DNA of 64,000 bases, taken from the NCBI GenBank assembly GCA_902595725.1, contig CACJRJ010000001.1, positions 1 through 64,000 of the forward strand, given 5' to 3'. Positions 14,916 to 48,188 of the stretch are shown here, piece by piece (the stretch's first letter is position 1; each line of letters opens with the position of its first letter). Below the pieces are notes generated by a model. It was not told the DNA's origin. It ran no database searches and saw only the letters and a program-made list of their open reading frames with translations. The translations under genes and the position numbers were made by a program. The DNA comes from an uncultured Pelagibacteraceae bacterium (lineage in GTDB: Bacteria > Pseudomonadota > Alphaproteobacteria > Pelagibacterales > Pelagibacteraceae).

Positions 14916-15900
14916 TTTGACCCACTAAAGGTGATTGAGGTGCTAACTTAACTTTATCCATTATATGATCTATTTTTTTAATATCAGCATCTCTTACACA
15001 TAAATTTTCACTTAAATATCTTTTCCAAAAACTAGATCCAGTTTGCCCATGAAATAAACCTAGCGTATGTCTCATAATTTGATTTAATCTTGTTCCATTT
15101 TTTGTTTCTTCTTTTACATATGGAATAAGATTTTCAATAACTTCTTGTCTAGAAGGCGTGTTATTATTTTTAAAAATTTCTTTTTCAATTTCAGATAAAA
15201 AGTAAGGAGAGTGATAAACTGATCTACCAATCATTACTCCATCAACTTTGCATAAGTGATTTTTAATTTGTTCGGTAGAAGTAATTCCACCATTTATAAT
15301 TATTTCTTCGTTTTTAAAATCTTTTTTTAAATTATAAACAATATCATATTTTAATGGAGGAATATTAAGATTTTGTTTAGGTGTAAATTTTCCTAACATA
15401 GCTTTTCTAGCATGTATGATAAATGTTTTCACACCCGTATTTTTTAATTTATCAATAAAATTGTATAAATTTTCATAATCTTCTTGATCATCGTAGCCAA
15501 TTCTAGTTTTTACTGTTACAGGTAGTTTTGTTGAAGATTGCATTTTGCTTAAACAATCAGCTACTAGACCTGGTTCTTTCATTAAACATGCACCAAATTT
15601 ATTTTTTTGAACTTTTTTACTTGGACAACCAAGGTTTAAGTTAATTTCATCATAACCAAATTCTTCACCAAGTCTTGCTGCGTTAGCTAAAAGTATTGGT
15701 GATGAACCTCCTACTTGGAGCGCTAGAGGTTTTTCATTAATATTGAACGATAAAAGTTTTTTTTTATCTCCCCTGTCAATTGCTTCTGATACAATCATCT
15801 CTGTGTATAAGAGAACATTTTTACTAATTAAACGTAAAAAATATCTTTCATGACGATCTGTGCAATCCATCATTGGTGCAACTGATACTTTTCTATTCAT
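14908..15900 (-). CDS. dusA: tRNA-dihydrouridine synthase A
   Basis: VSVAPMMDCTDRHERYFLR, LQVGGSSP, EINLNLGCPS, HARKA, INGGI. Confidence 0.93.
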   Translation of the reverse strand: MNRKVSVAPMMDCTDRHERYFLRLISKNVLLYTEMIVSEAIDRGDKKKLLSFNINEKPLALQVGGSSPILLANAARLGEEFGYDEINLNLGCPSKKVQKNKFGACLMKEPGLVADCLSKMQSSTKLPVTVKTRIGYDDQEDYENLYNFIDKLKNTGVKTFIIHARKAMLGKFTPKQNLNIPPLKYDIVYNLKKDFKNEEIIINGGITSTEQIKNHLCKVDGVMIGRSVYHSPYFLSEIEKEIFKNNNTPSRQEVIENLIPYVKEETKNGTRLNQIMRHTLGLFHGQTGSSFWKRYLSENLCVRDADIKKIDHIMDKVKLAPQSPLVGQID

Positions 15901-15925
15901 AATATAAGATTGTTATATTATTTAA

Positions 15926-16462
15926 TTAACTAATTGAAGTCTCTGAATCTTTCTCTTCTTCGCTTGCTATTTCTTCGTCTTTAAGGTTATCCAAAGAAAC
16001 ATCTTCATCTTTTGTTTCTATTGACTCTTCCAAGGGTTCGCTTTCAATTGACTGTTCTTCTGGTGAATTTTTTAATTCAGCAAGGTCTTCTTTTGATACT
16101 TGAATTTTTTCTGGAATTTTTCTTGCTCTTTTTGATGGTAATATTGGTACACCACTCTTTGATATTTCACCTTTGTAAAGATTTTCAAAATCATCACCGA
16201 TTTCCTCATCTTCTTCAGATGTATCGTCAGTTTGTTCTACTTGTTTTCTAAGTTTATAGACTGCACTTTCTATTAGATCTTTAACTTTGATTTTATCTTC
16301 AGCTATTTCTCTTAATGATATAACTGTGTTTTTATCATTATCTCTTTCTAAAGTTGGTTCTAGTCCTGAATTAAGTTGAGTTGCTCTTTCTTTTGCTACT
16401 AAAACTAATTCATACGGACTATCTACTTTATCTACACAATCTTCTACAGTCACTCTTGCCAT
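15926..16462 (-). CDS. rpoZ: RNA polymerase omega subunit with long acidic C-terminal extension
   Basis: [31 protein letters not shown] is the omega signature; 178 aa with Glu/Ser/Asp-rich tail. Confidence 0.92.
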
Positions 16463-16493
16463 TCGTGCTATTTATACTTGGTGTATTCTAAAA

Positions 16494-17705
16494 TCAAGTT
16501 ATTTTTATAGGATTTAAATTTTTTCTTATAAAAAATAGAGATATTATTGAAACTGAAATATAAGATGCAGAAACTAATGAGATTTGCTCTATAGAGAAAC
16601 CTTTATCTATTAAAATACCAAATACAGCTGTCCCAAATGCTGTAGCAAATACCATTAAAGCTGTGGTAAGAGCTTTAATAGAGCCAATGTATTTTACTCC
16701 ATATATCTCTGCCCATGTTGATGAACCAAGCACATTGCAAAGACCATTTGTAATACCAATCAATCCAAAAAATACAAATGATGAAAAAGGATTATCAAAA
16801 TAAAATAAAACCATGGCAGCAAAAAATAATGGAATATTCATATAAATTAAAATTTTTCTGCTAGTAAATTTATCAATTAAGAATCCTGAAAAAATCAATG
16901 CTACAACTGAAAGTATAGAATAGGACATAAATGATTGTGCAATTATATATGGACCCCAATTTTTTGAAGAAAGAATAAAAGATTGATAAACAAAAGTACC
17001 AGTAGCAATAGATGGCATTGCTAACATATTTGCACAAACTATATAAAATCTATAATCTTTTATAACTTCAATTCTTTTCCATTGTTTAAAATCTTTTTCA
17101 TTTAAATTATTATCATCCTCTTTTTCTCTTGAATCAAAATTAAGATTTTTTACCAAAAAATAAGAAGAAAGAGGCAAGAAAATCAATACAACAAGTGAAA
17201 TTCCAATCCAAATATTTTGCCATACTGTAATTGTTAAAAGATAAATCATTAAAACTGGTAAAATAAATTCTGCTGCAGATAAACCAAACCATCCAGTGCT
17301 TAAAGCTTTTCCTCTAGATTTTGTAAAATATCTAGAAATCGTAGTAGTTGCAGTATGAGACATCATGCCTTGACCAGAAAATCTCATTAATAATATTGCT
17401 ATAAATAATAATGGTATTGAAGAAATTTTAGAAAAAAAGAAACTAGAAAATGCAAGTAATAAAATTACAAAAAAAGAAAATTTAGAAATATCTATATCAT
17501 CAATTTTTTTTCCAACCCAAATTAATATAAAACTACTTAGTAGAGTAGCTGAAGCATAAACTGAGCCAAATTGTCCATGAGTAATAGATAATTCATTTCT
17601 TATACTAGGATTAAATATTCCTAAAAAAAAACTCTGTCCAAAACTTGAAAAAAATGTAAATATGAATCCAAATATAACTACTTTTAAACTTAAATTTTTA
17701 AACAT
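16494..17705 (-). CDS. MFS transporter
   Basis: About 12 hydrophobic segments, MFS-like layout. Confidence 0.8.
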   Translation of the reverse strand: MFKNLSLKVVIFGFIFTFFSSFGQSFFLGIFNPSIRNELSITHGQFGSVYASATLLSSFILIWVGKKIDDIDISKFSFFVILLLAFSSFFFSKISSIPLLFIAILLMRFSGQGMMSHTATTTISRYFTKSRGKALSTGWFGLSAAEFILPVLMIYLLTITVWQNIWIGISLVVLIFLPLSSYFLVKNLNFDSREKEDDNNLNEKDFKQWKRIEVIKDYRFYIVCANMLAMPSIATGTFVYQSFILSSKNWGPYIIAQSFMSYSILSVVALIFSGFLIDKFTSRKILIYMNIPLFFAAMVLFYFDNPFSSFVFFGLIGITNGLCNVLGSSTWAEIYGVKYIGSIKALTTALMVFATAFGTAVFGILIDKGFSIEQISLVSASYISVSIISLFFIRKNLNPIKIT

Positions 17706-45123: not shown

Positions 45124-46109
45124 ATCAGATAATAATAAAAATTTTAAAAAAAAATGGTTTAAATACAAACCATGCAACGATTTGTTCAAAAGCATTAATA
45201 AATGCTGAACTAGTTGGTGCTCATTCTCACGGGTTATCAAGATTAAAAATGTATTGTGAAAGGATTCAAAAAAAAGTCATTAATCCAAAACCAAAAATTA
45301 AAATTAAAAAAATTTCTCAATCTATTTCTAAGATTGATGCAAATAATAGCATTGGATTTGTAGCTGCTGATATTGGAATAAAACAAGCAATTAAAAATGC
45401 AAAAAAAACAGGAATAGGATTAGTTGGAATAAAAAATAGTGGTCACTACGGTTTATCAGGTTATTACGCAGAACAAGCTGTTAAGAAAAATTTAATTGTT
45501 TTTTGTTTTACAAATGCTCCACCTGCGATAGCTCCTCATGGAGCAAGAAAAAGTTTATTTGGAACAAATCCAATATGTTTTGGAACTCCTACTTCATCTA
45601 AAGTTCCTTTTATTTTAGACACTTCTGTTTCAGTAATTAATAGGGGTAAAATAAGAGTTGCTGCAAGAAATGGAAAAAAAATACCAAAGGGAGTTGCTTT
45701 AGATAAATTTGGTAAAGCAACTACAAATGCAAAAAAAGCATTGGCAGGTGTTCAGTTACCAATAGCAGGTTTTAGAGGTTCAGGACTTGCATGGATGGTT
45801 GATATATTAAGTGGTGTTTTTACTGGAGGAAATCATGGAGGAAAAGTAAAAGATCCTTTTGATGATTTTTCAGGCCCACAAAATATTGGACACTTGTTTT
45901 TTGTAATGAAACCAAATCTTTTTGTTGGAAATTATAGTGAAAGAATAAAAGAAAATATTAAAAGAATAAAAAGATTGCCTAAAATAAAAGGTGTAAAAGA
46001 AATTTTATATCCTGGTCAAAGCAAACAAAAAAGATATAAAAAAAATCTTAATAAAAAAATTAATATTGCAGCAAATATTGCTGAAGATCTTAAAAAATTA
46101 AATGCTTAA
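45102..46109 (+). CDS. LDH2/MDH2-type 2-hydroxyacid dehydrogenase (malate/lactate/sulfolactate dehydrogenase family)
   Basis: AELVGAHSHGLSRLKMYCERI, GLVGIKNSGHYGLSGYYAEQA, APHGARKSLFGTNPICFGTP. Confidence 0.9.
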   Translation: MVNGKKLNQIIIKILKKNGLNTNHATICSKALINAELVGAHSHGLSRLKMYCERIQKKVINPKPKIKIKKISQSISKIDANNSIGFVAADIGIKQAIKNAKKTGIGLVGIKNSGHYGLSGYYAEQAVKKNLIVFCFTNAPPAIAPHGARKSLFGTNPICFGTPTSSKVPFILDTSVSVINRGKIRVAARNGKKIPKGVALDKFGKATTNAKKALAGVQLPIAGFRGSGLAWMVDILSGVFTGGNHGGKVKDPFDDFSGPQNIGHLFFVMKPNLFVGNYSERIKENIKRIKRLPKIKGVKEILYPGQSKQKRYKKNLNKKINIAANIAEDLKKLNA

Positions 46110-46689
46110 TAAAAAAGTTCTAACCAATATTTTTAAAAAATTGTTGGAAGAAGCAAAAAATTCTTATAATGATTTCAATTCTGCTGATGGAAAAATAGGA
46201 GATGGTGATTTAGGTGTTACAATCTTGCACGGTTTAAAAGAAGTAAATAATAATATTAGTAAATTCAGTGATGACATGGGAGCAAATTTTATGCTTTGTT
46301 CTCAAGCTTTTGTTAAAAAATCTGGTTCTAGTTTTGGTACTTTAATTGCTTTTTCTTTTATGAATATTTCAAAAAATCTAAAAGGAAAATCCGAATGTAA
46401 CCATGAAGATATCATAGCTATTTTTGAAACTGCTTTAAAAACAATACTTGAAAGAGGAAAAACTAATCTTGGAGATAAAACTATTGCAGATAGTTTAGAT
46501 TTAATAATTAAAAATCTTAAAGATAATCAAAATTACTCTGAAGTATTTAAATCATCAACAAAACAAGCTTTAGAAAATTTTAAAGGTAAAAAAATTAAGA
46601 TTGGTAGAGCTCGAATGTTTGAAGATAAAACAAAAGACTTGGATGACCCTGGAATGTTTGCTTTAAGCAGGTTATCTTCAATATTTTAA
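46102..46689 (+). CDS. dhaL: DhaL-type (ADP/ATP-binding) dihydroxyacetone kinase subunit
   Basis: DGKIGDGDLGVTILHGL, KKSGSSFGTL, LGDKTIADSLD, GRARMFEDKTKDLDDPG. Confidence 0.87.
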   Translation: MLNKKVLTNIFKKLLEEAKNSYNDFNSADGKIGDGDLGVTILHGLKEVNNNISKFSDDMGANFMLCSQAFVKKSGSSFGTLIAFSFMNISKNLKGKSECNHEDIIAIFETALKTILERGKTNLGDKTIADSLDLIIKNLKDNQNYSEVFKSSTKQALENFKGKKIKIGRARMFEDKTKDLDDPGMFALSRLSSIF

Positions 46690-47183
46690 GGTTTGTTAAT
46701 TTTAGCTATCATTCCGTCTTCATAGTGACCTGGTACATTACATGCGGCTTCGAGATTTGTATCGGTACTAAATTTCCATATTAATTCTGCACTCTGGTTT
46801 GGTTCTAATAAAACACTATTAGAATGAGAGTGACTCATTGAATGGTCTTTTTTTGCCATTTCTTTCATTTTTTTCATATCTATTTTATCAGCTAATAAAA
46901 TTTGATTTTCTACCATCTTCATCATTTCTAGCTGGTGTTCAATGTGCATTTCTTTAGTAGCAATATTAAACTCATGAACTAGTTCTCCATAGTTACTAAT
47001 AACAAATTTAACTGTTTCGCCTTTTTTTATTTTTATTTCATTGGGTTCAAAATAATTATCATACATTTTTATTTCAATAGTACTGTCAACTTCTGATAAT
47101 TTTCCTTTCTCACCTATCATCTTTATTGATGATGCAAATAAAATGTTTGGAATTATAAAAAATATTAGGATTAATTTTTTCAT
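46686..47183 (-). CDS. Secreted cupredoxin-like copper protein with Met/His-rich insert
   Basis: Signal peptide; FEPNEIKIKKGETVKFVISNYGELVHEF and AACNVPGHYEDGM cupredoxin ligands. Confidence 0.85.
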   Translation of the reverse strand: MKKLILIFFIIPNILFASSIKMIGEKGKLSEVDSTIEIKMYDNYFEPNEIKIKKGETVKFVISNYGELVHEFNIATKEMHIEHQLEMMKMVENQILLADKIDMKKMKEMAKKDHSMSHSHSNSVLLEPNQSAELIWKFSTDTNLEAACNVPGHYEDGMIAKINKP

Positions 47184-47184
47184 A

Positions 47185-47576
47185 TTAATTTGTTGGTTTA
47201 AAAATTAAACAAAGGCCATTATTACAAAATCTCATACCATTTTCACCAGGACCATCTTCAAATACATGTCCATGATGTGCTCCACATTTTGCACAATGGT
47301 ATTCAACTCTTTTCATTCCAAAAGAGTAATCAATTTTAGTATTAAATGCGCCAGGAAGAGACTCGGTAAAAGATGGCCATCCTGTTCCACTATCATATTT
47401 TGAATTAGAACTGAATAATTTAGCATCACAATTGGCACAGTGATAAAAACCATCTCTCTTTTCATGAAGCAAAGAACTGGTAAATGGACGTTCAGTACCT
47501 TCATTAAAAAGTATATGTTTTTGTTGTTCTGTTAAATTTTGATTTATTATTTTTTTGTAGCTGAGTATAAAAATTT
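47185..47576 (-). CDS. msrB: Methionine sulfoxide reductase B catalytic reading frame (frame-disrupted from its signal peptide; see finding)
   Basis: In-frame translation continues upstream of the ORF-track ATG (47472) as ...KIINQNLTEQQKHILFNEGTERPFTSSLLHEKRDGFYHCANCDAKLF; GTGWPSF, CxxC zinc sites, MRFCNN active site. No ATG/GTG/TTG in the upstream part of this frame. Confidence 0.88.
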
Positions 47577-47639
47577 ATATGGAAATAATATTAGTGAAAT
47601 TAATGATGCGCTGAATAATTTTAAAAAGTTCCTTTTCAT
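47547..47639 (-). CDS. Tat-like signal-peptide ORF upstream of msrB, likely its true N-terminus
   Basis: ATG at 47639: MKRNFLKLFSASLISLILFPYKFLYSATKK*; stop immediately after A7 tract at 47550-47556; the MsrB frame is -1 relative to this. Confidence 0.7.
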   Translation of the reverse strand: MKRNFLKLFSASLISLILFPYKFLYSATKK

Positions 47640-47714: not shown

Positions 47715-48188
47715 ATGAATATGAATTTAAAGGGAAATAATAAAGCACCTAATTTTAAACTTGCCAGTACAGATGGAAATATTTTTGAATTAAATAAAGT
47801 TAAAAAGAAGAATATAATTTTATACTTTTATCCAAAAGATGATACGCCTGGGTGCACAATAGAGTCTAAAGATTTTAGCAAGTTAAATAGTTTAATTAAT
47901 AAGAATAAAACTATCGTTCTTGGTATTTCAAAAGATAGTATCGAAAGTCATTTAAAATTTAAAAAAAAATATAAATTGAAATTTGATTTACTGTCTGATG
48001 AAAAAAAAGAAGTAATAAAAAAATATGGTGTTTGGGGCAAAAAATCTTTTTTAGGTAAAGAATTTATGGGAATAAGAAGGACTACATTTTTGATTAATTC
48101 TAAGGGAAAAATTCACAAAATTTGGAATAATGTTAGAGTTAAAGATCATGCTAAAGAAGTTTTTGAAGAGTTAAAAAACTTAAATTAA
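47715..48188 (+). CDS. bcp: Peroxiredoxin, BCP/PrxQ type
   Basis: YFYPKDDTPGCTIESKDF, GVWGKKSFLGKEFMGIRRTTFLI. Confidence 0.93.
   Translation: MNMNLKGNNKAPNFKLASTDGNIFELNKVKKKNIILYFYPKDDTPGCTIESKDFSKLNSLINKNKTIVLGISKDSIESHLKFKKKYKLKFDLLSDEKKEVIKKYGVWGKKSFLGKEFMGIRRTTFLINSKGKIHKIWNNVRVKDHAKEVFEELKNLN

Follow-up and report, generated by a model that had tools for sequence, protein, structure and literature searches.

A one-base poly(A) contraction separates msrB from its Tat-like signal peptide in a draft Pelagibacteraceae genome

We report that the split msrB gene in a 64 kb stretch of an AT-rich Pelagibacteraceae (SAR11) draft genome, referred to here as the window, very probably reflects a homopolymer that is one base short in an otherwise ordinary gene for an exported MsrB, for technical reasons or else through a very recent mutation, and that it is no programmed recoding site. 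Of the two origins we favor the technical one, and think it somewhat probable that the base was dropped during amplification or assembly of the draft genome. In the scenario that we propose, the A8 run of the ordinary exported msrB of Pelagibacteraceae would have lost one A in the draft assembly, after which the signal peptide would read into a TAA codon and the MsrB domain would drop to the -1 frame.

The two frames of msrB and their relatives

Read directly from the minus strand, the frame that begins with the ATG at 47639 encodes MKRNFLKLFSASLISLILFPYKFLYSATKK and then TAA TAA. This 5' piece of the gene (47547-47639, minus strand) is a 30-residue, KR-type Tat-like signal peptide (KR-x-F-L-K), homologous to the signal peptide found in relatives, and is closed by the TAA at 47549-47547. 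Around the junction the minus strand reads TCA GCT ACA AAA AAA TAA TAA ATC: the A7 run occupies 47550-47556 on that strand, is preceded by a C at 47557, and falls in the zero frame as ACA AAA AAA TAA. The positions first assigned to the run were correct. The initial annotation had also proposed that a -1 shift would join signal peptide and enzyme seamlessly, and the -1 frame across the A7 run does continue as ...SATKKIINQNLTEQQKHILFNEGTERPF..., a full MsrB. Its catalytic domain (peptide-methionine (R)-S-oxide reductase; 47185-47535, minus strand) matches PF01641 in a profile search with 148.3 bits over profile positions 1-116, and TIGR00357 with 133.8 bits, above the curated cut-off of 113.05. 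The two Zn CxxC pairs (CANC and CAKC) and the catalytic RFCxN motif, here MRFCNNG, are all present.

A separate start for this frame was considered in two forms and rejected. Internal initiation of a leaderless MsrB finds little room, as the frame opens just 13 codons before the domain and, as was noted at the outset, holds no ATG, GTG or TTG ahead of the conserved residues. The mechanical open reading frame at 47185-47472 (minus strand) starts at a codon that had been called ATG and is in fact TTG; starting there would cost the domain its first ~21 residues, and both frame reading and comparison with relatives make it an improbable true start.

Downstream of msrB lies a gene for a cupredoxin/CopI-like protein (46686-47183, minus strand), named from a CopI-like NCBIfam match that stays under the curated cut-off, and a PrxQ/Bcp-type thiol peroxidase gene (47715-48188, plus strand; PRK09437, 152 bits against a cut-off of 140) is the divergent neighbor. 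The stretch between the cupredoxin gene and the convergent dhaL-like gene (46102-46689) is a variable site: at 46689-46703 close relatives hold ~0.6 to 2.7 kb of extra DNA of varying length, and the window holds none.

The msrB junction was read in 28 genome_contigs loci (L031-L058) and in further loci (L116-L144) drawn from 300 sampled genomes of the genus. L121 covers the junction too incompletely to be informative, and some few loci come from duplicate genomes. Signal peptide and MsrB share one unbroken frame in all ~54 informative Pelagibacteraceae loci, and among the species of the genus sampled none shares the broken frame. The five closest genomes carry A8 in an otherwise identical context, ACAAAAAAAATAATAAATCAAAA: G242, G127, G218 (AG-414-L14), G272 and G062 (AG-343-J20) all read GCTACAAAAAAAATAATAAATCAAAA where the window has A7. 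Their eight adenines supply the codons Lys-Lys-Ile (AAA AAA AT), and in G242, G127, G218 and G272 the signal peptide, MRRNFLKLFSAS..., is fused in frame to MsrB. This comparison shows the run in the window to be contracted by a single base against all close relatives. Because some 54 relatives are single-frame and the closest five have A8, the split is, on this comparison, private to the assembly and not a conserved recoding site. The initial annotation had suggested counting seven versus eight adenines in close relatives; since the closest all have A8 in a single frame, homopolymer error and recent inactivation are the two of its explanations that are left.

Downstream of the A tract, the MsrB domain differs between the window and its relatives by 3-8.5 nonsynonymous and 24-26.5 synonymous changes, with pairwise dN of ~0.01-0.03 and dS of ~0.44-0.51, values similar to those between pairs of intact relatives. 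This dN/dS comparison found no relaxed selection downstream of the tract, and comparison with the relatives revealed no further stop or gap in the window's msrB. The downstream codons are, judged from these substitutions, under strong purifying selection, so that msrB is no old pseudogene; the lesion is, on the same evidence, either very young or absent from the cell. A second msrB copy is frequent in SAR11 relatives. In another Pelagibacter genome, an additional msrB copy is fragmentary, lying in two pieces and interrupted by a stop (G004:C5:49534-49874).

Homopolymer breaks in two draft genomes

The source genome is a draft of 1.08 Mb in 43 contigs, at 84% completeness. Its nearest relatives in genome_contigs are Pelagibacteraceae, mostly single-cell genomes, and judged from these neighbors it is itself probably single-cell amplified. 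Open reading frames from G242 and G127 were compared with 832 kb of it, ~400 genes for each draft; a few further candidate breaks, weak and located close to gene ends or within diverged sequence, are left out of the counts. No interior gene of the 64 kb window other than msrB is broken against these relatives; across the 832 kb, the interior breaks are msrB (A8 to A7), tatC (T9 to T8), ilvD (A6 to A7) and a histidine kinase gene (T8 to T9). The tatC gene (G000:C2, ~15878-16569; L156/L157) is split at ~16131, where three relatives have T9 against its T8. The ilvD break, at ~872 of the same contig, has A7 against A6 in both close relatives, in a gene whose DNA is 97% identical to that of its relative, and the EnvZ-like histidine kinase is broken at G000:C14 ~5963 by T9 against T8 in both. 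The sister draft G242 (L145-L148, with stretches in L181-L240) has its own homopolymer breaks, in sucA, mmsA, acsA, tolC and an ABC permease gene (two indels), and these genes are intact in the window's genome. Broken genes without a profile search carry presumptive names, assigned from their sequence by family. Homopolymer frame breaks thus affect ~1% of the ~400 compared genes in each draft.

The broken genes are core genes free of other decay, ilvD among them. In both drafts the breaks sit in homopolymers of genes that look otherwise healthy, a pattern for which homopolymer errors in draft assemblies, probably made from single-cell amplified DNA, offer the best account. It is unlikely that tatC is truly dead: tatA and tatB stand intact beside it, and TatC should still be needed by a Rieske protein that is encoded next to cytochrome b and keeps its RRDF twin-arginine signal intact. 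Once tatC too proved to be frameshifted, joint loss of translocon and substrate (Tat and msrB) was considered, and was rejected as the best reading: tatA, tatB and the Rieske RRDF signal are intact, and the unrelated ilvD and histidine kinase genes are broken in the same way.

The main competitor to a technical origin is that the lineage of this cell really did lose one base, very recently, which would make the window's msrB a young loss-of-function allele. It would account for an A7 that is private to this genome; runs of 7 or more A/T, natural mutation hot spots, are very common in coding sequence, and the second msrB copy of many relatives suggests that loss may be tolerable. Against it, this draft (84% completeness) has just one MsrB match, and the similar breaks in the core genes tatC, ilvD and, in G242, sucA point to a technical source common to drafts. 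As a control, the first 400 kb of the complete single-contig genome G324 gave 0-1 breaks in 131-175 comparisons versus 2 in 177 here, too few to separate the origins, in a protein-based comparison insensitive enough to miss both msrB and tatC. With so few breaks in the control, we keep natural recent mutation as a possible but less likely origin, and retain the technical one as our preferred reading.

Transcriptional slippage and programmed frameshifting

Were the A7 run real, RNA polymerase slippage on poly(A) could add one A to some mRNAs, which would then encode some exported MsrB and partly rescue the gene. Such slippage has been documented or proposed as a correction of homopolymer frameshifts in the AT-rich endosymbionts Blochmannia and Buchnera, where ~30% full-length transcripts are quoted for frameshifted genes (PMC3017870). 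For E. coli and Buchnera, insertions made during transcription occur predominantly in A/T runs and increase exponentially as the run lengthens (PMC5574713). The present genome, with 29% GC, is likewise rich in A/T runs. However, that transcriptome-wide survey found no case of a transcription error restoring a frame (PMC5574713), and the broken-frame A7 occurs in no relative examined; we regard rescue of this gene as unlikely. In a wider version, free-living SAR11 bacteria would really bear many private one-base frameshifts at homopolymers of core genes (msrB, tatC and ilvD here, sucA and acsA in the sister draft) and survive them by poly(A/T) slippage, as has been proposed for insect endosymbionts; this seems more doubtful still. 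A literature search on homopolymer frameshifts in SAR11 returned nothing directly relevant. If the shifts were real and rescued, slippage rescue would extend from endosymbionts to a very abundant group of free-living bacteria.

A programmed -1 ribosomal frameshift at A_AAA_AAA, by which the exported MsrB would be made in translation, is the least credible of these readings. The heptamer does lie in the correct X_XXY_YYZ phase with a stop directly after it, but the same heptamer occurs in phase 108 times in the window, in 49 of its 63 open reading frames of at least 100 aa, and in 612 of the 797 open reading frames of the sampled genome. AAA makes up 91% of Lys codons in the window (29% GC) and ~90% in the sampled genome, so the heptamer is to be expected and means little. 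The RNA 3' of the A run shows no stimulatory structure in a folding test of pseudoknot-free structures (-6.1 kcal/mol, z 0.00, with 86 of 200 shuffles folding equally well), and no Shine-Dalgarno-like stimulator is recognizable by eye upstream. The single-frame relatives, of which the closest have A8, need no shift at all. Unconserved, structureless and built on a ubiquitous heptamer, programmed frameshifting thus drops out of the initially listed explanations.

The preferred reading, a one-base contraction in an ordinary gene, bears on annotation. With frame-breaking indels in ~1% of compared genes in both drafts, split genes are unsafe as calls of gene loss or recoding, and a split msrB or tatC should be taken as a sign of neither in the absence of reads or relatives.

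Comparison with known systems

The closest counterpart of the window's msrB is the exported Tat-type MsrB of Pelagibacteraceae (such as G242, G127 and AG-414-L14), with which it shares the signal peptide, the TKKIINQNLT junction and the MsrB domain, at 94-97% amino acid identity to the closest of these proteins; it differs in having A7 in place of A8, and hence two frames in place of one. With the frameshifted genes of Blochmannia and Buchnera (PMC3017870) it has in common a one-base poly(A/T) indel in an AT-rich genome and a coding sequence that is otherwise intact, whereas its shift is unconserved among relatives, is known here from DNA alone, and is possibly technical. Like dnaX-type programmed -1 cassettes (A_AAA_AAG), it places a slippery A-rich heptamer in phase; unlike them, it has neither stimulators nor conservation, and its heptamer is commonplace in the genome.
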